Assembly (NCBI GenBank): GCA_003024785.1
Contig: PUQB01000652.1
Span: 62,001-126,000, forward strand
Direction of reading: 5' to 3'
Source of the DNA: Selaginella tamariscina
Lineage: Eukaryota; Streptophyta; Lycopodiopsida; Selaginellales; Selaginellaceae
DNA length: 64,000 nt
Part shown: piece after piece, positions 16,056 through 37,800 of the stretch
Layout: every line of letters begins with the position of its first letter
How positions within the stretch are numbered: position 1 is the first letter of the stretch
Notes under the pieces: generated by a model
What the model saw: the letters and a program-made list of their open reading frames with translations, nothing else
The model's database searches: none
What the model was told of the DNA's origin: nothing
Made by a program: the position numbers and the translations under genes

Positions 16056-16222
16056 GGTATTGTGCATTTGGAGATTAGTACCGTGGAACTCTGGTCATTT
16101 GTGAATCCAGTGATAATTTAAACATGGCACCAGGAAGTTTTAGTGTAGCCAAGTAATAATATATATATATTTTTGTAATAAATTGAACAACATTTAAGCA
16201 GTAGAATATAAATTTTGTACAG

Positions 16223-17468
16223 GAGGAGTATTCCAGTGCAGCTTCTTTACCAATGGGATGAATATAATGCTGGTATGTCATTCATGAAGCAAAAGCTTAC
16301 TCTTCATGCAATAATAGCTTTTGCAAAATGGCACCATAAATTAATAGTAAAAGAGAAAAAAGTAGGATGCTACTGGGCTCTTTGGCAGTTGCAAGTCACA
16401 ATAGCTGAATATTGCGATGGATTATGGGAGGCAAGCTCCTCTTCATCAGTTCATTCATCTTCCTTACCTTCTCATGATCGAAAGGAGCAGCTCTTAGCAT
16501 TCTTAGTTCGTCACAAGGATCTTTGGTTTGACAAAGCTGAAAGTGATGGTGAACGAGATCCAAAAGGCTGGGCAATGTTTTACTTAGGCGTGACGACATG
16601 GGTCTCCATATCTAACTCCAATAGTGATGCTGTCTTAGTTTGGCTATACAACGCACTGGACAATGCAGACGGACCGGATCTAGTAGAACAAGCACTTACC
16701 ATCTTGGCAGATGTTTTCCTCAAGCTAGGTAACTACGAGAAAGCTATTGAATTTTTAACTGCCATTCAAGAGAGTCCTTGTGTGGATGCTGGAAATCAAT
16801 TCGATGCAATGGCGAAGCTCTCTGTGACTCTTGCGATGAATGACAACTTGGGAGGTGCTGACCAAGTAATCGAGAGAATGGAGAGGCTTGCATCAGATGC
16901 TTTTGGTAATGACAAAGTTTATATAGAGGCTGTTGTCTCTAAGCTGCGTGCTACTATCAGTTACATGGCTTGTGAGTATGCTAAGTGTGAGAGAGAAAAT
17001 AGGAGAGCAGTTGAGTTGTTTGCAAGACTGCCAACCAGCATGCAAGATTGCTACCTTGAGTACATGGATAATGCAGATGAAGAGGCTTTTCCACCACATA
17101 GGCGTATTCGGGTTGTGGAGTTCAGTTTGTGCGCATGGAAGGAGATTGTGACATGTGATGAAAGACTTGTGGGAAACGATCGAGGTCCGAGGCTAGACAA
17201 GGAAAATCTTGTGAAAGCGTTGGCACAACTCGGAATGGATGTGGAAGAAGTATTTCTAAGTGATGATGAACATGGGACCAATCAACAGTCGAGCATCACA
17301 AGGGTAGATACGGAAAAACTGTGGGAACTGCTGATAGAATATGAAGCTGATGAGGTTTTACAAACTACATACATGGGGATAACCATTGCTCTTCACAAGC
17401 GTTACCTTCAAGCAAAACAGCATCTCAAGGCGAAGGAGTTGGATAGAGCGGTTTCTGTAGCAAGGGAG
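16223..17468 (+). CDS. TPR-CHAT protein, 5' part (split by transposon)
   Basis: An open frame of about 415 codons follows a plausible splice acceptor (ttttgtacag) at 16,222, so earlier exons may be missing or unrecognised; the first Met in frame is near 16,272. It is helical with TPR-like units, for example QALTILADVFLKLGNYEKA and the following VDAGNQFDAMAKLSVTLA segment. It ends at VSVARE, exactly where the 12-bp target duplication begins; the same reading resumes at 25,823. In the intact gene this part would be the repeat scaffold ahead of a caspase-fold CHAT domain. As assembled, translation runs 21 codons into the transposon and stops at 17,531. Start uncertain, TPR-CHAT identity supported by the 3' half. 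Confidence 0.7.
17457..17468. repeat. Left copy of 12-bp target site duplication
   Basis: The word gtagcaagggag occurs here and at 25,823-25,834, on either side of the transposon. Joining the flanks at one copy restores the host reading V-A-R-E-I-L-E-L. Mutator-like elements typically duplicate 8-11 bp, so 1-3 bp may match by chance. Confidence 0.8.
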
Positions 17469-17510
17469 TGTCGCCATTTTGGAGGCTTGGGGCCCAGGAG
17501 GCCTGGGCTC

Positions 17511-17548
17511 GAATATTCAAGAATATTCTAGAATATTTTGGAATATTC
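17511..17548. promoter_or_regulatory. Array of heat-shock-element-like palindromes at the left terminus
   Basis: GAATATTC or a one-base variant starts at 17,511, 17,521, 17,531 and 17,541, exactly 10 bp apart. This gives alternating GAA/TTC pentamers, the pattern of a heat shock element. It lies 42 bp inside the transposon end. It could bind HSF, or be a subterminal transposase site that resembles an HSE. Confidence 0.5.
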
Positions 17549-17552
17549 TTTC

Positions 17553-17582
17553 TGGTCGGCAGTATTGGCCTCAGTCGGCAAA
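17553..17582. promoter_or_regulatory. Subterminal TGCCGAC-type motifs
   Basis: Two copies of GTCGGCA occur here ('ggtcggcagt' and 'cagtcggcaa'). The second is the same TCAGTCGGCA arm that forms the hairpins in the internal 137-bp array. Sharing between the terminus and the internal array suggests a binding site for an element-encoded protein; that is inference. Confidence 0.5.
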
Positions 17583-17659
17583 AAAGAATTCTATTAAAAC
17601 TGTTGTATTTCTTTTTATTTTTTTTATATTAGCTTAATTTATTACTCAATATACATTAG

Positions 17660-20600
17660 CTAAAGTTTCTTCTTCATCTTAAGTAAAGCTGCAGTTCTCG
17701 AACCACCAGTTACGCTTGGACGTGGAGGTGTTTGAGTAGGTAACTCTTCTGGTCTAATGTTCTCTGCAAGCTTGTTTGTTGCCAACCTAGAGAGTTCGAA
17801 ACTCTTCTCGGTTCCTATAATATTCCTTCCGAGCTCGACGGCAGCTAACAATGATGACCCGGTTCCGGAACCAATATCCCAGACTAGGTCGCCAGGTCTA
17901 CTGAGACGCTCGATCAAAAGCTGCATGAGTCGAACACTCTTCGGTTGAATCATAATCCTGCACAACTTCCATTAGGATAAACATAGCAAAGTACTTCCTT
18001 ACCAAGCCTCCTGATAACGGTCGGCAGTGTCGACGAGGATCGTGTTCGTCAACGCCAGAGGGTTTGGCCTCTTCGACTTCTTCTCAGAGCTTTGCAGCAC
18101 CAAGAGAACTAACAAGTTATCCTGCCACATAGACCAAGTTAAACTTGAACTTGAATAGCTAGCTTACCTTAATTTTGTCACGGTATCCCCAGCCTCGTGC
18201 ACGGTAGACGCTGTAAGTCCCTGCAACCTCCAAGTTGATTACTGCAGCCGCCTGAATCACCGCCGAAACAGAAGGAGAACTCGCGAAGACGACCATGAAA
18301 CCACTCGCTGCCAAGTGCATTCCACTGAACTGCAAGGCCTCCTCAAACTTCACCGGATCTAGCTGCACAATGTCCTTGTTGATGCTAGCACCTCCATATA
18401 CAAGCTCATTGGGCAAGTCGAGGATGATGAGGTTGAAGCCGTATTCACCTACCACTTCCTGGAACAACGTTTGTGACTCAACCGTATGTAGTCTGTCAAC
18501 CTGTTCTCGGAGCTTGGTGTACACCTCTGTCTGGGAAGCACCTGGCTCGAAGAAAGACCTGCTCATCTCCTCCATGTCGCACACAGCTAGGTCGTAGGAT
18601 CCACGGGATGCAGCCAGGGTCGGGATGAAGGTCATCAGGTCGTCCTTGATGTCCAAACTAGCTACAAGTGGCTGTACCTCATTGATTGTAAAGTCGAATG
18701 CCGGCGGAGGTGCTGTAGAAGAGCTTGGTCCCGCTCCCGATCCCTTTGCAGGTGTAGTTGTCTTCCGCACCGTCTTCTTCATCTTGCTCTTCTTGATAGC
18801 CTCTACTTCTTCTGGCTCCCAAACAATCGCTGGTAGATCATTGGCGTGCATGTCGAATAGTGTGCTCTCCCAAGCTGGTGGCTGTTGCGACGGACAGTCG
18901 AGCCAGAATGGAACATGCTCCCGTTCGAACGGTGTTAGAGCTCCTCTGCTCTTCGACCACATGTGAGGCTCGCTTGTATGATCTGTCCACAGCTTCATCG
19001 TATGGGACGGTGTCATTTGCTTCGCCAGTATGAACCTGCAACACAAAGTCAGACAGTAGCAATGCTGGATTGAAAGCTTACCTCCATATCATCCGACGCG
19101 CAGATTCCTCACGCTCCAGAAACTCATTCGGCTCCATCGAATAAGTGAACCGTATGCAGTCATGGAAGGGCTGAAAGACCAGGCACTTGCTCCGATTCTC
19201 ATCTCGTCAAACCAGCTCATGAAGTCGACATCCGTTCCAACTTCTTCACCATCCTCTCGCAACCCCTTAAGGATCTGAATGGCTTCCTCGCGCACAGCCT
19301 TCCAATATAAGTCCAAGGTGAACCACTTGATCCACTCTTTGTCCTGCATGCCCGGTAGCCCAAGTGTCTGTTGTTCTGCCTTGGATTCGAGACGGGTGAG
19401 CTTGTTGAGGTATCGGAGTCGCAGCATGTTTGGAATCTTCGCCCTTGACATCGCATACAGCTTCTCAATGCCCATCCAGCGACACTGCTTATGAGAGATT
19501 GTCACCTTCTGGAACCACTCCTCCCCCAAGTCTGGGTCTATGATGGAGAGGAACTTGTGCATACGCTTGTCATGCTTCTTGTACACTAGCTGCTTCAGGT
19601 TCACCTCAACCTGTGGATTGCCCTTAGCACTGGTGACTGCTCTGTCGAGATCATCGTCGATCTCGTTCTGCACATAGAATAAGTTAAAAATTTCTTTCCT
19701 ATAAATTAAATCGGAGGTTACCTTGAAAAGATCTTTGCGCAGATCAGGTTCGGAAGAGGATGCCAAGCCGTCTTTCCTGATGAACTCTCCTTCCACTTCC
19801 GCACCTCAAGACGATCAACCTCCGTGAGTGACTCGAGGATTTTCTGAGTTCCTTCTGTACTAGTGCAGACCGCCTTTACAGCGAGGAGAATATGTGGTAG
19901 CGTTGTTTCCACAGATGTTGCTGAAGATCTGTTCAACGAAACTGTAAGTCTAAACTCTTAACAAAAAGAAAAGAAAATACTCACATGTTAATCGATTGGA
20001 ACATCGAAACCAGTTGAAGAATGTCGAGGTTCTCCGTGGAGATGAAACTCGATCGAACGCGAATAGCCCATCGCTGGTTGTCCTCTGCATCCTCTCGGTA
20101 CAGCTTCTGCAAAGCCTGTAGCCTATGGTTCCCGTCCCAGCAGCTAAACTTCCTGTTTGAGAGCCTTGAAGCCCACTGTTTGTACTCCGGCTGAGTAAGA
20201 GCTTGCTCGAAAGACCGGTGCTGCTCGTACTGAATCGTGTCCTTCGACAGCTCCGATAGCTCCTCAGCAGTGAGTCGATCTCCGATGGACAGAATGAACA
20301 AGGCCGTGTTGCGTAGATAACCAGCCTTCTTCAACGATGACACCAGCCTGTCCAAGTCCCCTAGGTTACTCGTCGAACCACCTCGTTGGAATGTATTCTG
20401 CAGATGGGCACATCAGGAGGATCACCAAGTCCCTTGATAGTAATTTTGTCGAGCAGGTTTGCTGAGCTCTCCAAATGCAGGCTCGCCGGTATGCTGTATA
20501 ACTCCTTCGGCTCCTTATCGCTCTTCGCCTTCTTGCCTTTTGAATCAGCTTTCCCGCGGCCTCTCTTTTTGCTGACTGCCTCCTCCAAGTCGTCCTCGCT

Positions 20601-20879
20601 AGCTTCAGCTGCCTCTGTCATCTGCACTTGCTCGTTCAGGACTGCAACCTCAGCGGATGAAGGAGGCAACTGCGACGAGCTCTCCGGGAAATCTGTGATT
20701 GTTGGTGGAGGCTGTTCTTGCTCAACTGCTACTACTCCAGACTGAGTCACTGGAGGATCCTCCTTTGCTACATTAGATGGTTCTCCTCTCTTGCCTCGCT
20801 TCTGCTTCGATATCCTCTTCTCTTCCCGTGGCTCTTCATCAGGCGCAGTCTCTAGTAGACGTTTTGAAGCTCTCACCAT
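17660..20879 (-). CDS. ParB-like domain / DNA amino-methyltransferase fusion protein
   Basis: Read from ATG at 20,879 after a 5'-UTR acceptor. The N-terminus is a basic, NLS-like and acidic linker (KRISKQKRGKRGE; KKRGRGKADSKGKKAK). A ParB/Srx-like domain follows: VPICRIHSNEVVRR, DLDRLVSSLKKAGYL, then CWDGNHRLQALQKLY. A helical middle region leads to the methyltransferase: motif IV position NLIILDLPNELVYGG, AASGFMVVFASSPSV, then IQPKSVRLMQLLIERLS-PGDLVWDIGSGTGSSLLAAVELGRNIIGTE (motifs X/I). Motif IV before motif I is the beta arrangement of N6A/N4C enzymes. Introns of 43-54 bp join the frames at 19,942-19,984, 19,668-19,721, 19,036-19,081, 18,123-18,168 and 17,958-18,002, all GT-AG. Frame changes remain near 20,360, 19,790 and 19,200. 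The usual DPPY is DLPN here, so catalysis is doubtful. Stop at 17,660. Confidence 0.75.
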
Positions 20880-20949
20880 TTTGGGAACTCTGGAAAGTAA
20901 ACACACAAGTCAATTGATGAGGAGTCAAAATAAAAAAAAAACAAAGATG

Positions 20950-21960
20950 ACTAACCTTGTGGCTGCCGACTCAAGCTAGATGCTGCCGACCCTCTCAGTC
21001 GGCAGAGAGATGTAGAAGAAAAAACCTGCCGACTGAGATAGTTTGTGCCGACTCTGTCAGACGGCACAGAAGAGATAATGGTGCCGACTGAGATAGGATG
21101 GTGCCGTCCCTCTCAGACGGCACAAATGGGAAGACCCATTAACTGTTTTAAAAGAAATACTTGAGACGCAAAGAAAAAAAAAACTAATTCAAAATACCTT
21201 GTGGCTGCCGACTGAAGAAGGATGGTGCCGTCACTCTCAGTCGGCACAAATGGGAAGACACTATAACTCTGAAAAAAAACATTGTTATACGGATACTTGA
21301 GCCGCAGAGCAAAATATAAACAAATTCAAAATACCTTGTGGCTGCCGACTGAAGAAGGATGGTGCCGTCACTCTCAGTCGGCACAAATGAGAAGACACAT
21401 TAACTCTGAAAAAAAACAATGTGATACGAATACATGATCCAGAAAGCAAAAAATAAATATATCGAACATACCTTGTGGCTGCCGACTGAACTAGGATGGT
21501 GCCGTCACTCTCAGTCGGCACAAATGGGAAGACCCATTAACTCTGAAAATAAAAACCTTGTGATACGAATACTTGAGCCAGAAAGCAAAAAAAAACAAAT
21601 CGAAAATACCTTGTTTTTGCCGACTGAACCAGGATGGTGCCGTCACTCTCAGTCGGCACAAATGGAAAGACCCATTAACTCTGAAAAAAAAACATTGTGA
21701 CACGTATACTTGAGCCGCAAGGAAAAAAATAAATAAATCGACGATACCTTGTGTTTGCCGACTGAACCAGGATGGTGCCGTTGCTCTCAGTCGGCACAAA
21801 TAAGAAGACCCTATATCTCTGGAAAAAGAAATACTTTGAGCAGCAAATCATAAAATACAGAAATTACACATACCTTGTGGCCGCCGGCTGAGCAGGATGG
21901 TGCCGAGAATCTAAATCGGCACAGAAATCTCCATTGTTATACTTGGGCGCTGCACGAATC
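20950..21960. repeat. 137-bp tandem array with TGCCGACTGA inverted repeats
   Basis: Units start with 'ccttgtgg' or a variant at 21,197, 21,334, 21,471, 21,609, 21,747 and 21,873 (spacing 126-138, mostly 137), with an earlier unit at 20,955 and two shortened ones near 21,025 and 21,078. Each carries TGCCGACTGA, then a central GTGCCG, then TCAGTCGGCA: 10-bp arms about 22 bp apart that could form a hairpin. Between cores is an A-rich spacer. The array lies between the divergent starts of the methyltransferase and transposase genes, so it is placed as a bidirectional promoter or a protein-binding array. Confidence 0.9.
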
Positions 21961-21964
21961 GAGT

Positions 21965-22145
21965 CGAAATGGATGGCGCCGCAGTGGAAACCGTAACTCT
22001 GAGATCTGAGATTAAAGAAACCCTCTGGATCTGCCGCAGTGGAAACAGATCTGAGATTGAAAGAACCCTAGCCGCAATGGAAACAGTAAACCCTATCTAC
22101 CAAAAAACCCTAGCCGCAATGAAAACAGTGAACCCTACGGAATAA
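21965..22145. promoter_or_regulatory. Leader with repeated ccgcaGTGGAAAC words and AAACCCTA boxes
   Basis: Four short words related to 'gccgcagtggaaac' occur at about 21,978, 22,032, 22,071 and 22,110, interleaved with 'aaccctagccgcaatgg' and AAACCCTA telo-box-like words. They lie upstream of the transposase ATG at 22,419. Telo-boxes in plants mark promoters of growth and translation genes; a promoter or leader role here is inference. Confidence 0.45.
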
Positions 22146-22418
22146 ATGTGACATTAATATTTAGGGTTTATTTTAAAATATGTGAATAATTGGTAAATGT
22201 GAAGATATTTCAAATCATAAAAGGTAGAAATTAAATTAAATCGGTGATACTAGAGAGGACATCATTAAGAACACTGTGAACTGGGCAGCATAGAATTAAT
22301 TATATACAAACGTGTATTCACGTTTATTGTTAACGATTGTAATTTTTTTTTGGTAAGAGAAAGTGTGTTTAATCTTTTGCTTTGCTTTCCTAAACCACCG
22401 AGCTTTCTCCTTGTTGTC

Positions 22419-25084
22419 ATGGCCAGAGTTACCTATGAAGGCATTGACAAAGATTTCCCAGTCGATGAAGATGGAAATGCTTTTGTGTTTGAACATGATC
22501 TTCACATTGCTTTCAACATTCCTTGTTGGTTCAGTATACATGTGGTTCAATTGATGTCAGTTTCTGCGAGTTCTGGAGAAGATGTGGAGTTGTTACCAGA
22601 AGGCAATGCATCAAACCAGTTTGTCTTTTACACATTGTGCCCGGCAAAGGGCCCGTTGTTCAGGTTGCGGACAGAGGAGCGTGAGGAATCCATGCTGGTG
22701 TGTCTTCTAAGAGCAGACAAATGTAGGATAGGGAAGGATCTCATTGGTTCGTCTGAAGTTAAACGAGTCTCTGAACTACCGCAGATATACAATGGAAATG
22801 TCATTTTCGAACTTCCCCCTAAGACAGAAAGCACAGAGAAGTACTCGGGGATGAATCGCAAGGATGGCTGCTACCATTGGACACACCCGAGCACAACACA
22901 CTGGCATGTTCCGGCGCGAGTCAGTCGAAGTTCATGTGTCGGACATCTCCAATGCATCAATCCTACCTGCCCCTACTTGGCTTTTGAGAAGAAAGCAAAT
23001 GAATGTCACTTCAAGGGTGCTGTGGAGAAGGCAAAGACAACTGAGACAGGCAAAGTAATAGGCATAAAATGTAAGCATTGTGGAGAGGAGCCATTGCTGG
23101 TGCACACTTGTCCGGCTTATGTGTACTACATTCTGCCAGACGACATTTCTTTTACAAGGTTGTTCATTCACAGAGGTGTTCATCAGCATCCAGTCAGCCC
23201 CTCAGTGTCAGCTTCAAACGTTCAGCGAGCCAGATCTAGTGTCAGCAACGTGGTAAAGAGCAGTCCGCGAACCAATCAACGAGTGATTGAGTTTCAAGCC
23301 GCGCGTGAGCTCATCTTTGAAGAACTTTTCAAGGAAGAAGGAGAAGTCTCGTACACTGGTTTACTCTCAAAACTTGAACCTCTAACAAACCATCGAAGGT
23401 ATTTTTTTTAGATCTCTACACACTGACGTGACCTTTTCTTTAGGACTCGGGACTGGCATTACACAATCAAGACAGAAGGAGACACACTTTAGAGAGGGTT
23501 ACGAGGGTCTTCTGGAGCTGAAGACAAAGCTGCCAATACCTTTCATTCACGTCATACATGTTCCAGGGATGGAACTGCATGGTGCTGAGGAGCAGCCTCT
23601 GATCTTCAAAATGACAGTTGAGGGACCGGGTTCAGGAGTTGAGTACATCAGAAGGTGTCAAAGTGGAGGAGACCTTCATGATCAATGGGTTGTTCTGGAC
23701 CACACGCACCGCATACCAGACTGGGCGACAATTGGAATACACCTTTATGACCCATTGTAAGTTGTAAAACTCTTCATAACACTTTCTAATCTTCGTTATC
23801 TAACGCTCTCTTGCAGTGTCAGATCCATGGTGACTATAGCTTACGCAGATATGTGCCGCGAAGATAATGTTGCAGTGCTGAAGTTCTTGAACACAATGCT
23901 AGAGGTTTGTAAGAAGCAGGGTTTGGAGAATGTCAACTTTGCTGGTTTCATGTCGGATGAGGCTGGAGCGATATGGATAGCCTTGCGCCAAGTATTCAAC
24001 AACGGAGCAAAGATGAAAGGGAGGGAAAGAAGCTGTCTGTTTCACTTTATGCAATCCGTGCGTCAGGTGACAAAGAAATGGATCGCAGAAGAACATCGCG
24101 AAGAACACATGAAGCTTGCTCGTGCCTGGCCTGCAGCACTGAATGAACAATCTAAGAAAGAACAACTGGCAATTCTCGAGTCTTTTGGGAAGGACGAGCG
24201 TCAAACATTCGAGCTTTGAAGACATGGCTGTCTTGGTGGATCAGGCATGAGGACCACATCTCCATGGCGGAACTGGGAGACATGACAGAAGAAGGACTCG
24301 CGAGCGTTCCAACTACAAACAATGCTGAAGTGATTCACGCGAGAGCAAGAAGAGCAAGATTGGCCAAAAGAGTACCACTGCTGGAGGCGACAATGTTAGA
24401 CCTCACCGATGCAGTTATGCAGAGTGCGAAGGTGAAAGCGGCAATAGAAGGGAGGTATACAGGGTCAGGGCCTTCGAAGGAAACTCTGTTGAAACGAGTG
24501 CAACGCAAACTCTCTGAGGGGAAAAGTGTATCTCCATCAACAATTATTAATCTGGTGGAAGGCGAGGAACACTTGACCAGCCCGGAGTTCACGAGTACCA
24601 CTAACGTTCGAGTGCAAACTGTTAGGAGAACAGTCACAGGAACAGAACAGTCTGATGCTCGACGTTCACACAGACATGATGTAGAGTACACAGAGCGGGT
24701 GGTCCAAAACAACAGGAGAAAGAGGTTAAGGTTCGAAGAGGTTTCGGAGAGAGAGATTGCTCAAACAGAGTGGGCCATCAGACGAATCGGAGCATCCAGT
24801 AAGGTTAAGTGTTTGGGGATGAATCAGGAAGGAACTGCTCTGTGTGGAAAACCAATCGGTTATCCAAGCAGAGTGCCAGCACCAGGATTCTATGGAAAAC
24901 GAATGTACATTGATGCCTTGGGGAATGAGGAGTATGTACAACAGATGATGTGGTTCTGCCCAAAAGATTCAGGGTGTTTCACGCGGCCAAACGGCAAAAT
25001 TCTTCGGTCACGAATTCCAACACCACCAACGGTTTGGCCTGTGCTCAAGGAAACGAAGCTGACAAGTGAGGAGGTCAGAGAACT
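22419..25084 (+). CDS. MULE-like DDE transposase with GCM/WRKY-like zinc finger (3' end in gap)
   Basis: ATG at 22,419. The N-terminal half holds a cysteine/histidine module: CVGHLQCINPTCPY, then IKCKHCGEE..LLVHTCPAYVYYILP and LFIHRGVHQHP, like the WRKY-GCM1-type fingers found in some Mutator-family transposases. Exon 1 ends at 23,398; introns at 23,399-23,443 and 23,757-23,816 have GT-AG borders. The catalytic core follows: WVVLDHTHRIPDW (first Asp), FMSDEAGAIWIALRQVF (second Asp), SCLFHFMQSV (the C..H motif) and VPTTNNAEVIHARAR (the TTN..E motif). A C-terminal zinc ribbon is suggested by VKCLGMNQEGTALCGKP and WFCPKDSGC. Single-base frame breaks occur near 23,489 and 24,217. The 3' end is lost in the N gap. 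The enzyme would excise and insert the element. Confidence 0.75.
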
Positions 25085-25779
25085 NNNNNNNNNNNNNNNN
25101 NNNNNNNNNNNNNNNNNNNNNNNNNNNNNNNNNNNNNNNNNNNNNNNNNNNNNNNNNNNNNNNNNNNNNNNNNNNNNNNNNNNNNNNNNNNNNNNNNNNN
25201 NNNNNNNNNNNNNNNNNNNNNNNNNNNNNNNNNNNNNNNNNNNNNNNNNNNNNNNNNNNNNNNNNNNNNNNNNNNNNNNNNNNNNNNNNNNNNNNNNNNN
25301 NNNNNNNNNNNNNNNNNNNNNNNNNNNNNNNNNNNNNNNNNNNNNNNNNNNNNNNNNNNNNNNNNNNNNNNNNNNNNNNNNNNNNNNNNNNNNNNNNNNN
25401 NNNNNNNNNNNNNNNNNNNNNNNNNNNNNNNNNNNNNNNNNNNNNNNNNNNNNNNNNNNNNNNNNNNNNNNNNNNNNNNNNNNNNNNNNNNNNNNNNNNN
25501 NNNNNNNNNNNNNNNNNNNNNNNNNNNNNNNNNNNNNNNNNNNNNNNNNNNNNNNNNNNNNNNNNNNNNNNNNNNNNNNNNNNNNNNNNNNNNNNNNNNN
25601 NNNNNNNNNNNNNNNNNNNNNNNNNNNNNNNNNNNNNNNNNNNNNNNNNNNNNNNNNNNNNNNNNNNNNNNNNNNNNNNNNNNNNNNNNNNNNNNNNNNN
25701 NNNNNNNNNNNNNNNNNNNNNNNNNNNNNNNNNNNNNNNNNNNNNNNNNNNNNNNNNNNNNNNNNNNNNNNNNNNNNNN
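25085..25779. other. Assembly gap (N run)
   Basis: A run of Ns hides the transposase 3' end and the right subterminal region of the transposon. Open frames spanning the gap are artefacts. The true length is unknown. Confidence 0.99.
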
Positions 25780-25822
25780 ATATGAAGCCTCCTGAGCCGG
25801 AGCCTCCTTTTCGCCGAGACCC

Positions 25823-25834
25823 GTAGCAAGGGAG
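25823..25834. repeat. Right copy of 12-bp target site duplication
   Basis: gtagcaagggag, identical to 17,457-17,468. It directly follows the right inverted-repeat end of the transposon. Confidence 0.8.
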
Positions 25835-27546
25835 ATCTTGGAGCTATCTAGTGAGAGGGGTAGCATATCTGATGACGCACAGGCACTCATACTTCTGTCA
25901 GATATTCTGATGGAAGCTGGATCAACATACAGGAGATGATTGAAAGCTTGTTGTTAAGGGCAGAAGTTCTGATGCGGTCCAAGCCAAGAAACCACAGGGT
26001 TGTTCTCAACGAGCTTGGTGGCTACTATTTTCGAACATCACAATGGAGAAATGCAGTTTGCATACTCGAGCAATATGGAAACGAGTTCGTGACTTGGGAG
26101 TGCTCCCATGGAAGCTCTAGCTCGAGGAGACTAGAGTATGCTGACAGTGCAAAGGAAGTCTTTCATTGCTTGCAAGTAGCTTTGTTAGCATTGGAGAGAC
26201 CAGATGTACGAAAAGCTCTCGTGTGGACTGAGCGAGAACGAGCCAGAGACCTGATTTACTCATTGAGCAGTCGAAGGGAGGTTTCACCATCTACATTCGA
26301 CACCCATTACGATGTTGCATGGGAAGAAATCGGTTCCATATGTGAATCTGCTGGAGAACACACAGTGTTTCTTATATACACAGTTCAGTGGCTTGGGAAC
26401 TTTGTGAACGACGACTACAACTTACTCAGCTACTTAGTTCATGCAAAGCATGAACCAAGGTATTTCATGCGAGAAGCCATCTCCATCCAATCGTATCTAT
26501 ATGGCTTAGGCCGCCTGATGGATGAAAGAGAAGGAGTAGACACCCAGACCATTCATGATTTCCTACACGAGCTGTATAAAATACTGGTGGAGCCATGGTG
26601 GGATGCACTCCAGGAAATTGCTCCACAGAGATTGGTTATTATCCCTAGTGATGTAAGTGCATGTACTGTGTGTGTGTGTAAGAGAGAGAGAGAGAGAGAG
26701 AGTTAACTTAAGCTAATACCTTCAATTAAACAGGTGGTGTCACTAGTCCCTTTTGCTGCATTAGTGACAAGGAGAGGTCAGGACAGTGTCCCAGATGAGT
26801 ATCTTATCCAAAAGTACATGGTTTCAACTGCTCCATCACTGCGGATGTTCAAGCAGTGCCAAGAACGCAAGAAACAGTTGAGTTCAAGGATTTGCAAGGC
26901 AGTGGTGGTGGGCAATCCGGATAACTCACTGGTGTCTGCAACAGAGGAGGCTGAAGATGTCATGCACGAGTTGACTCAGGCAGGTGCTTCCGTGGTCTAT
27001 CTTGGTAACCACAGTAACAACCAGTCAGCAGTAACTGCCACTCCACAGAAGCTGTTGGAAGAACTTAAGGGAAGTGATTGGGGTCATGTAGCGAGCCATG
27101 TGGTGATCGATGATGCAGTTCCACAAGGAGGGATTGTACTATGGGATGATAAGACTCTCACAGAAGACGATCATGAGAAAAGAAGGGTGGTTTTGAGTGC
27201 ACAGGAGATTGAAGAAGCCAGAGTCATACTTCCAACAAAGGCAGTGATACTCAGTGGTTGCAGCTCAGGACTCGGGATAAATAAGAGCGAGGGAACATTG
27301 GGACTTCCCAGGTCTCTGCATTTGAGTGGCGTTCCAACTGTGGTGGCTTCGCTGTGGAATGTGAACAGTAAGTATACAAAGGAACTTATGAAGAGGTTTT
27401 ATAAAGAGCTACTTGACAATCCTTCGGAGGTGGCCCGGGCTCTGCATCTGGCCGTGAAGAGCATGGCTGAGCAAATGGATGATTTTGAAGAAGACCGGGA
27501 ATACAAGGTGTACCATTGGGCACCGTTCTTTTGCTCTGGTTATTAA
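25823..27546 (+). CDS. TPR-CHAT protein, 3' part with caspase-like CHAT domain
   Basis: The host gene resumes at the right target-site copy: VAREILELSSERGS then ALILLSDILMEAGS, followed by a frame change near 25,930 (consistent with a 2-base insertion) into QEMIESLLLRAEVLM and further TPR-like helices. One intron, 26,653-26,733 (GT-AG, containing a GA microsatellite), joins RLVIIPSD to VVSLVPFAALVTRRG, the typical entry of CHAT domains. The CHAT core has WGHVASHVVID with the candidate catalytic His, and AVILSGCSSGLGINKSEGTL with the candidate catalytic Cys, then PTVVASLWNVNSKYTKELM. CHAT is a clan CD caspase/separase-like fold. The stop is at 27,546. With the transposon in place the gene is split; both halves are otherwise well kept, so the insertion is probably young. 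Confidence 0.8.
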
Positions 27547-29668: not shown

Positions 29669-32171
29669 CTAACTATTTAGCTCCCAATCTTGCCAGATAC
29701 TCAAGCTCTCATATATATCACTCATCAATGTGTATGCACCTCCATCCTTTGTATTTTCAGCCAGTAATGCATCGAAAGCAGCCTTCCCCACTTGCAAGTT
29801 CTTCCACTTTCTACATGAACCGAGCAAACTCGTCCACGTATAACTGTTGGGCTTACAAGGCATGCTCCTCACAATGGACAAGGCCTCTTCCAACCGGTTA
29901 GCTCTCCCAACATGTCCACCATACAGTTATAGTGTTCCACACTGGGAACAATACCATATCTACACATGGATTCGAAGTACATCTCTGCCTCGTGTATAAG
30001 CCCTGCATGACTGCAGACCATAAGAACACATATAAACACGACACGATCCATTTGTAAGCCAGTCTCCTCTATCCTCTCTACCAAGGAAAACACACTAGAG
30101 GACTCACTGAGCGAAGTGTACCCCGATAACAAGGCAGTAAACGAAACTATATCTGGAGAATGCATGCCATTAAACGTCCCTTCGGCTCTCGCCATGCTCC
30201 CACACTTCCCATATACATCCAACAATGCGTTTGCAACAACTCGATCTTCGTCGAGTCCATGCTTACAAACTCTAGAATGAATCCATCTTCCGGTTGGTAA
30301 TAGTGCCAGATTTCCGCATGCCTTGAGAGCTGCAATATATGTGACACAGTCTGGCTTACAGTCCATGGTGGTGAACAAGTCCAAAGCAACTGAGCACTTA
30401 CCATTTTCGACGTATCCAAGAATGAGAGAGCTCCAAGTAACAACGTCCTTCTCTGACATGCTTACAAACACTTCCATTGCATGCTCCATGCTACTACATT
30501 TTGCATACATGTCCAATAAGGTGTTCCCCAAAACTAAGGTAGATATAGAACCAATTTTTCTGTGTATGGAAATCCCTCTCTGAAGACCTGTCTCGCCACC
30601 CAGACTTGCACATGCCTTCAGTGCTGCAAGATATGTAACATGGTCAGGTGCACAGTCCATGGAGTCGAGCAACTCCAGAGCTAATGAGTATTTCTCATTC
30701 TCTACATATCCCAGCATGAGGATATTCCATGTTACAACGTCCCTTTGAGCCATGCTCTCGAACACTTCCCTGGCAAGATGCATAGTCTTACATTTACTGT
30801 ACATGTTCATTAAGACGTTCCCTACAGCTGTGGTGGAATCAAATCCGCGGCATTTCACTTGCGTGTGAATAGAAACACCTTTCTCGAGACAGAACTGCTT
30901 TCCTGGCTCTCTCTGTGTGGCCAAACGAGTACACGCCTTGAGTGCACCGATATACGTGACCATGTCCGGTTCACAGTCCATACTAGCAAACAAATCGAGA
31001 GCTACAAAGCTCTCTTCATTCTCAACGTATCCGTGAATGAGTGAGTTCCACATGACCACGTCCTTGTGAGTCATGGAGTCAAAAACCACCTTTGCAAAAC
31101 GCATGCTCGAGCACTCACCATACATCTCAATGAGACTGCTTGCCAAGACACGGTCAAGAGCAAATCCGCGAGCTTTCACTTGTGTGTGGATGGCAATGGC
31201 TTTCTCGAGACAGAACTGTTTGTTGCGTGCCAACTTTGCACACGCCTTAAGTGCAGCAATGTATGTAGTGTGGTCCGGTTCACAGTCCATGCTAGCAAAC
31301 AAGTTGAGAGCCATCGAGCTTTCACCATTCTCAACAAATCCCAAGATAAGGCAGTTCCAGCTAACAACATCCTTGTGAGTCATCCTCTGAAAAACCTCCA
31401 TGGCATTCTCTGTGCTTCCGCATTTCCCATACATATGCAGAAGAGTGTTCCCCACGTTTACATGCTTGTCGAACCCACGCTCCTTGACTTGTTTATGAAT
31501 GTCTATCCCCTTCTCTAGCTCCTTCAGTCTTGCACAAGCTTTGAGTGCAGCAATGTAGCTGAAATGATCCGGTTCACAGTCCATGGTAGAAAACAACTCG
31601 AGAGCCTTGATACTCTCTTCGTTCTCAACGAATCCCAACATAAGAGAGTTCCAGGCGACTACGTCTTTGTTTACCATCCTCTCGAACACCTCCATAGCAC
31701 GCTGCATGCTACCGCATTTCCCGTACATGTCTAGCAAAGTGTTCGCCAGAATCACAGTGTGCTCAAGCCCGCGTCTCTGACTTGCTCGTGGATGGCAACT
31801 CCTTTCTGTAAGTACAACTCCCTCTCCGAGTCTCTCTCCGCAGCCAAGCGGCCACACGCTTTGAGTGCAGCTACATATGTGACATGGTCCTTCTCACAGT
31901 CCATGGTGCTGAACAACTCCAGAGCTACGGAGCTTTCGTCATTCTCCACGTATCCTAGCATGAGAGAAGTCCACATAACTGCATCCTTAGAAGGTGCCCG
32001 GTCGAACACCTCCCTTGCGCTCTGCATGATCCTGCATTTCATGTACATGTTGATGAGTGCAGAAACTACGTATCTGTCTACATGGCAGCCAGCTTTGACA
32101 GCGTCCTGGTGTAGCTTCTTGCCGGCTTCTAAGTCTTTTGTCTTGCCACATTGTTTGATTGCAGAAAACAA
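29669..32171 (-). CDS. PLS-type PPR protein with E/E+ end
   Basis: The longest PPR in the window: a 662-codon frame (31,857-29,869) carries about nine PLS modules, with recurring NTLLDMYGKCGSM, THKDVVSWNCLILGFVENGES and MDCEPDHVTYIAALKAC units. The upstream frame (32,171-31,752) adds LHQDAVKAGCHVDRYVVSALINMYMKC; the downstream frame (29,893-29,669) adds LEEALSIVRSMPCKPNSYTW and an E/E+ end (AYTLMSDIYESLSIW). Single-base breaks near 31,770 and 29,905 separate the three, each fixable by one base, so assembly error is likely. PLS proteins with E domains act in organelle C-to-U RNA editing. No DYW deaminase follows. The start is unclear; a Met-led frame begins at 32,244. It is tail-to-tail with the PPR pseudogene at 27.7-29.6 kb. 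Confidence 0.8.
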
Positions 32172-36070: not shown

Positions 36071-37800
36071 ATGAATGGAGTTACGAAAGAGATTGCGGCC
36101 TTTGCTGCTCAGATAAGACAGTGTGGGAACTCCCAGAACATTGTGGAGGCAAAGCAAGTCCACTCAAGAATCCTTGGAAGCCAATACAGAAACGACAGGT
36201 ACTTAGCAAACTTAACAGTGGAAATGTACGGCAAATGCCGTTGTCTAGAGGATGCCAGGAGCGCGTTCTACTCTATTCAGAGGCCAAATGTGTTCTCATT
36301 TGGTGCCATGATGAATGCATATGCCCAGAACGGGCATCTGGAAGAAGCAAAGACTGTATTCGAGTTAGCACCGGAGAGAAGCTTGCATCTCTGGACCGTG
36401 CTTGTCAAGCGTATGCCCGACATATGCACCTGGAAGAAGCCAAGAGGACGTTTGACAGAATGCCGGAGCTTGATCTCGTGAGTCAGACTGCAATCCTGTC
36501 CGCGTTTCTTGACACGGCCACCTGGATGCAGCAAAGAGGATCTTCGAGAGTATGTCTGAGATTGACATGGTTGGCTGGACAATCATGTTGAAGGCATATG
36601 CCCAGAATGGGCATCTGCAAGAAGCAAAGCGGCTCTTCGAACTCATGCCGGAACAAGACGTCGTCTCGTCTACTGCCATGCTGGTTGCATATTCTGACAA
36701 CGGTCACCTCAGGGAGGCACAGGAACTGTTTACTGGAATGCATCAGAAGAACTCCGTCTCCTATACTGCAATGCTCAAGGGATACTCCGAAGGGCAGGAC
36801 TTCAGTGCAGCAAAGAGTCTGTTTCTAAAGATGCCCGAGCACAATCTTGTGGCTTCCACTGCTATACTCCAGGCTTACTCGGATAACGGGGAGCTTCAAG
36901 AAGCAAAGTCTGTTTTCGACTCGATGCCGGAACGCGATATCGTCTCCTGGAACGCAATGGTACAGGCGTATACCCAAAGAGGGTGTCTTGAGGAGGCGAG
37001 GATCGCCTTAGACAGGATGCCGCAATGGAACACAATTACCTGGAGTGCTATGGTTGAAGGATATGCCCAGAATGGGTATATGGAGCTTGCTAAAGACGCA
37101 TTCGATAACATGCCTGGGAAAGATATAATGGCATGGAACGGAATGCTGATGACATATGCCCAGTTTGGTACATTGACGAAGCCAAGGAACTCTTCTGCAT
37201 TCTCCCTGACGAAACATGTACTCGTGGACAGGGATGATTTCTGTACACTCAAAAGACGGTGGCATTGCAAAGTCCAAAGAAGTGTTTGACACAATGCCGG
37301 AGCGAAACATGGTTTCATGGAATGCAATGATTGGTTCCTGTGCTCATTACACTGGATATGCAAGAATGGCTGTCGAGTTATTCAAGTTAATGGAGCAAGA
37401 AGGTGTCCACCCCACGGATGTATCTTTTATCAGTGTTCTTACTGCATGTACCCGTATCGGACTGCTCGAAGAGGGGCATACTTACTTCCTGCGGATGATA
37501 TCCGATTACCGGATTACTCCATTGAAGGAGCACTACTGTTCTATGTTGGATCTTCTGGGACGGGCAGGAAGACTTAGAGATGCCGACGAGCTTATACGGA
37601 CAATGCCGTTTGTTCCCGACCACATCATGTGGTCCACGTTTCTGGGAGCTTGTAAACTCCATCCGACACGCAGCGTGGGGGTAAGGCCGCAAAGCAGCTT
37701 ATGAAGATGGACACTACCAAACTGCCTGTCTTATGTCATGCTGGGAAACATATGTGTTGATAAAAACCAAAGTGTACCAAGTATAATTCACACTCACATC
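36071..37800 (+). CDS. PPR protein (S-type repeats, E-type end), with frame breaks
   Basis: Starts MNGVTKEIAAFAAQIRQCG at 36,071 and continues VHSRILGSQYRNDRYLANL. Repeats then follow in order: NVFSFGAMMNAYAQNGHLEEA; ELDLVSQTAILSAF; DMVGWTIMLKAYAQNGHLQEA; DVVSSTAMLVAYSDNGHLREA; NSVSYTAMLKGYSEGQDFSAA; DIVSWNAMVQAYTQRGCLEEA; NTITWSAMVEGYAQNGYMELA; NMVSWNAMIGSCAHYTGY; then VHPTDVSFISVLTACTRIGLLEEG and EHYCSMLDLLGRAGRLRDA with an E motif; YVMLGNICVD in a shifted frame extends it to about 37,800. Frame breaks lie near 36,410, 36,530, 37,170 and 37,680. Many consecutive 31-residue S units suggest an RNA-binding organelle factor. Breaks may be assembly errors. Confidence 0.7.

Follow-up and report, generated by a model that had tools for sequence, protein, structure and literature searches.

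The closest described counterparts of the gene examined here, in design, are encoded by algal transposons. The Ectocarpus transposon Sola1-1_Ec32, reported in 2025, carries on the strand opposite its transposase a gene for a protein of 1104 aa in which a ParB-like part is followed by an N4/N6 methyltransferase; the element is 21.5 kb long, and green and red algal cases are mentioned in the passages cited here, which name Pack-MULEs in passing (PMC12477816). Fusions of ParB-CTPase domains to N6_N4 methyltransferases are enriched in phages according to the cited passages of a second paper, which give sulfiredoxin as the commonest eukaryotic member (PMC12704722), in agreement with an earlier sequence-only reading of this DNA that had called such fusions typical of phages and bacterial mobile elements. 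These phage and metagenomic fusions, among them one from the Microcystis phage Mel-JY34 (L005:1941-3236) and the 120 relatives of our comparison set (P0001-P0120, the 120 listed of 918 found, with PF02195 in 115 of the 120), likewise have a ParB-like part followed by a beta-type methyltransferase. They are about 430 aa long, and their consensus has ungapped ParB boxes and a DPPY motif IV.

We identified a gene of what is probably this design in the window, by which we mean the whole stretch of 64,000 nucleotides that was analysed. Our main reading, which we consider about 65% probable, is that it belongs to a plant DNA transposon, now dead, of some 8.35 kb with two genes, in which a transposase-like gene is accompanied on the opposite strand by an accessory gene for a protein with a probable ParB-like domain and an N4/N6-methyltransferase domain, of the kind reported in algae. 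As a more tentative part of this reading, intact elements would bind and methylate their own DNA. As in the algal kind, an N4/N6 methyltransferase domain is present and the gene lies within a transposon, opposite a transposase-like gene. The accessory gene looks like a further case of a design already reported in algal transposons, here apparently in a land plant, in an element of 8.35 kb and not 21.5 kb and with a protein of about 990 aa and not 1104 aa; the likeness to the algal proteins is one of architecture, as described. A plant case of a ParB-methyltransferase transposon gene was not found in the literature searched, which comprised open-licence papers. The earlier remark, that its author was not aware of a described plant MULE with such cargo, stands to that extent, although the architecture itself was already known from the algal transposons in the cited passages of PMC12477816.

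The accessory gene occupies positions 17660 to 20879 on the minus strand. Translation and splicing confirmed the proposal of a single minus-strand gene with GT-AG introns, of which there are five, all phase-compatible (introns 1 to 5: 19929-19984, 19668-19721, 19036-19081, 18122-18167, and 17958-18002, with lengths of 56, 54, 46, 46, and 45 bp). From the end of exon 3, a single frame runs across introns 3, 4, and 5 to the stop codon. There are at least three frame breaks, within exons 1, 2, and 3, and every reading by eye of the surroundings of intron 2 keeps a break. The proposal that the frames are mostly joined by introns of 43 to 54 bp is correct insofar as five introns of 45 to 56 bp are present, but the breaks inside exons 1 to 3 are not explained by introns. 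Because of these breaks the copy is dead and cannot make the protein, which we reconstructed with an X at each frame break and which, unlike the phage fusions, is interrupted by introns at the gene level and about 990 aa in length.

By its family matches, the GDLVWDIGSGTGSS block is the end of an N4/N6 DNA-methyltransferase of the beta type. The methyltransferase domain (17660 to 18698, minus strand) has the beta order and contains the SAM-binding block WDIGSGTGSS (17852-17881, minus strand). The last exon matched PF01555 with an E-value of 9.7e-10, and the spliced domain matched it with an E-value of 4.3e-9 (37.1 bits, against a Pfam cut-off of 26.7). In PHROGs, the match was to phrog_67, a DNA methyltransferase, with an E-value of 3.9e-11, and among solved structures in the PDB the matches were to the adenine methyltransferases MboIIA (5.8e-4), CcrM (0.0047), and DpnA (0.0097). 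The last 68 residues of the protein aligned with the 120 ParB-methyltransferase relatives with an hhalign P of 1.6e-8. The half preceding this end scored 21.7 against the same family, a value reached by 1 of 200 shuffles, with an hhalign probability of just 3%.

Active beta-class N4/N6 methyltransferases have a canonical motif IV of the form [DNS]PP[YFW]. This form, like the DPPY of the phage fusions, is absent at both of our candidate positions: global alignment placed the motif, at what is its likeliest position, at 18408 to 18419 (minus strand), where it reads DLPN (FNLIILDLPN), and local alignment placed it earlier, at DMEE (SYDLAVCDMEE). One phage relative has DIPY at this motif, which indicates that the second position can vary and that the aromatic residue is what is lacking here. 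The earlier description of a beta-ordered methyltransferase with a motif IV region therefore applies well to the end of the domain, but its motif IV is non-canonical and disputed in position. The two non-canonical candidates could mean that the accessory protein acts purely as a DNA-binding regulator, its methyltransferase fold being non-catalytic, and controls the divergent gene pair by repressing or licensing it; the location of a palindromic array between those genes would suit such a role. We consider this possible although fairly unlikely, since in a frame-broken copy motif IV may merely have decayed, and since the SAM-binding end is well preserved.

The N-terminal block of the accessory protein is probably a ParB-like domain. 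We built a two-block ParB profile from the 120 relatives, which, together with hhalign, delimited a ParB-like region at 19985 to 20414 (minus strand). Box I was placed at DVPICRIHSNEVVRRV...KKAGYLRNTALF, with a frame break inside it, and box II at FSCWDGNHRLQAL, which is the DGNHRL block (20119-20136, minus strand). The best joint placement of the boxes is where the sequence-only reading saw ParB, ahead of the methyltransferase, with the boxes ordered and in register. Shuffling the region 400 times gave 4 scores at least as high as the joint one, shuffling the whole protein 60 times gave 2, and the reversed region scored lower (-8.3, versus -0.5 for the forward one). The source of the score is the DGNHRL block, whose 8.0 bits were reached on their own by 4 of the 400 shuffles; box I scored -8.5 bits, and a slightly better placement for it exists elsewhere in the protein. 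The gap between the boxes is 49 residues, versus about 5 in the family consensus. Compared with the 120-relative family by hhalign, the ParB-like part gave a P of 0.06, and Pfam, PHROGs, and PDB searches of the accessory protein returned no ParB match. Single-sequence AlphaFold models of two pieces of the window had mean pLDDT values of 32.5 and 44.9, too low for use. The claim of a DGNHRL-type ParB block thus gains from its ordered placement before the methyltransferase and is weakened by the shuffles, the negative box I, and the searches.

The DGNHRL match could also have arisen by chance, or could belong to another DGxHR-type domain, leaving only a methyltransferase. About 1% of shuffles score equally, and the family searches and the long gap between the boxes point the same way. 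This explanation seems unlikely to us, given that the best placement in the whole protein is the expected ParB site, with the blocks in order, and that ParB occupies that place in the algal transposon proteins in the cited passages of PMC12477816.

Both genes lie within one insert. The sequence GTAGCAAGGGAG occurs in the window only at 17457 to 17468 and at 25823 to 25834, with no occurrence on the minus strand, and these two copies form a direct repeat bracketing a transposon of 8,354 bases (17469 to 25822), of which 695 are N. As 12 bases are common to both copies, the target-site duplication is 9-12 bp long. Local alignment of 17481 to 17502 (plus strand) with the reverse complement of 25787-25807 (the right part, minus strand) gave an imperfect terminal inverted repeat of 22 columns; it is weak, its local score of 26 being reached by 3 of 500 shuffles. 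Close to the left end, still within the element, GAATATTCTA forms a short tandem repeat of 3.9 copies (17511-17549).

When the flanks are joined at the duplication, they give an open frame, KELDRAVSVAREILELSSERGSISDDAQALILLSDILMEAGSTYRR, which continues for 34 codons beyond the junction before a stop, so that either a different frame carries the host gene onward or the host gene has been damaged as well. The open reading frame to the left of the insert has weak TPR matches, under the Pfam cut-offs, and the one at 26707-27546 is a CHAT domain (Pfam, E 7.1e-44). From these, the gene interrupted by the transposon (16212-17468 plus 25823-27546) is a probable TPR-CHAT, separase-like gene. We rejected a host gene without a transposon as an account of the locus, given the 12-bp duplication that brackets the insert and the open frame restored by joining the flanks. 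The window also contains PPR-repeat genes, at 29869-31893 (PF13041, E 4.6e-72) and 36513-37289 (PF01535, E 2.3e-45). Together with the short introns, they are what points to a plant origin of the DNA.

Searches for relatives covered proteins, viral contigs, phages, and prokaryote genomes. Against the protein collection, the spliced gene had no match at E-values up to 0.001 among the 7,992 best word-sharing candidates, and none at E-values up to 0.01 among 4,398 candidates. Scans of viral contigs with pieces of the element and with the phage fusion gave no confirmed relative. In tblastn searches of phages, the methyltransferase matched 387 records, none covering more than 80% of the query; a ParB domain was absent from all four phage proteins examined, which were taken from the 15 listed of the 387. 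The ParB part had zero matches in phages at E-values up to 10. Scanning prokaryote genomes with the last exon yielded 34 loci, of which 32 carry Streptomyces titles; in every one the match lies around the SAM-binding block. We rejected these loci as kin: the two of the 34 that were examined, both Streptomyces ORFs (L009 4266-5543 and L012 4092-5561), have only this block in common with the last exon and look by eye like precorrin methyltransferases of the cobalamin pathway, and we take the matches as a SAM motif in common and not as kinship.

In the cited passages of PMC12704722, prokaryotes and phages are where this pair of domains typically occurs, as would be expected had the gene come from bacterial or viral contamination. 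We rejected that explanation, which is almost certainly wrong, on the strength of the five introns in the accessory gene and the insertion site within a eukaryotic-type gene; the PPR genes in the same window and the lack of a close relative in the protein-collection and viral-contig scans also argue against it. The earlier suggestion that a eukaryotic MULE took up a prokaryotic-type module is supported in part: the introns, the PF01555 match, the hhalign alignment with the ParB-methyltransferase relatives, and the duplication indicate that a methyltransferase gene of prokaryotic type, with a ParB-like domain as a probable component, lies next to a transposase-like gene in a DNA transposon of eukaryotic type.

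The second gene of the insert (22419 to 25084, plus strand) is divergent from the accessory gene, on the opposite strand. It has a 60-bp intron (23757-23816) and at least two frame breaks, and it enters a gap of N at 25085-25779. Blocks recognized by eye as DDE-like and CxxH suggest that it encodes a transposase, and we call it transposase-like. No transposase family in Pfam matched it at E-values up to 10, which would still allow for a very divergent one; the sole Pfam match of the joined protein was DUF951, under its cut-off. A tblastn search of phages with a piece of the transposase-like gene gave one match, with an E-value of 0.6, which we took as chance.

Sola1 elements make target-site duplications of 4 bp, and those of MULEs are 8-11 bp long. 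The 9-12 bp duplication sets the element apart from Sola1 and, with the DDE-like and CxxH blocks, resembles the MULEs, whereas the missing Pfam match to a MULE transposase and the short, weak terminal repeats do not. The element had earlier been called a MULE; the duplication length and the blocks seen by eye fit that name, but Pfam returned no transposase family to confirm it.

Capture of cargo is common among plant transposons, and the accessory gene, which is broken, might be no more than a captured fragment, carried as a passenger in the manner of Pack-MULEs without a role in the element. This seems quite unlikely for a nearly full-length, multi-exon gene with a leader array of its own, whose architecture recurs in algal transposons in the cited passages of PMC12477816.

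Between the two start codons lie eight inverted pairs of TCAGTCGGCA (20964 to 21796), with the starts in a pair 31 bp apart in seven cases and 30 bp apart in one. Exact TCAGTCGGCA occurs 14 times in the window, versus 0.06 expected, always within the element, and with up to one mismatch it occurs 17 times, versus 2.17 expected, again always inside the element; the array stems largely from tandem duplication, so that shuffles overstate the surprise and the number of sites is not independent evidence. Sixteen of the 17 near-exact sites make up the eight pairs, and the remaining one lies close to the left end, at 17571. Five of the pairs lie inside a tandem array of 4.9 copies of 137 bp (21156 to 21827), whose units, on the minus strand, consist of 71 nt that are exon-like and 66-67 nt that are intron-like (GT...CAG). 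Such units are repeated through the leader of the accessory gene (20889-21880), a pattern that looks like the amplification of one exon-intron pair. Of eight donor matches in the leader, five have an acceptor at 66-67 nt, one forms a spurious 14-nt pair, and two have no acceptor by pattern. The last unit ends 10 bases ahead of the accessory-gene ATG, and the exon-like unit forms a hairpin (z -2.81), as expected of a palindrome.

The array of inverted pairs is plausibly a candidate binding array, whose user may be the ParB-like protein, the transposase, or RNA. In intact copies of the transposon proposed in our main reading, the inverted sites that the element carries in the leader separating its genes would most likely be bound by the ParB-like part, and the methyltransferase part would methylate adenine or cytosine there, with the purpose of regulating the divergent genes or of shielding the element from silencing. 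Taken alone, this mechanism of binding, methylation, and regulation or protection is tentative, and we would sooner bet against it than for it. A more specific version, in which the ParB-like part loads on the eightfold array, possibly in the way that ParB loads at parS, as a nucleotide-gated clamp, and the methyltransferase writes a bacterial-type mark by which the transposon escapes or tunes silencing, is a long shot.

The TCAGTCGGCA array between the genes is a concrete candidate for a binding target, none being named in the cited passages of the Ectocarpus paper (PMC12477816). If our main reading is true, the ParB-methyltransferase transposon gene would extend from algae to what is apparently a land plant. 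Given the misfit of the duplication to Sola1, it would also suggest movement of this cargo from one transposon superfamily to another.
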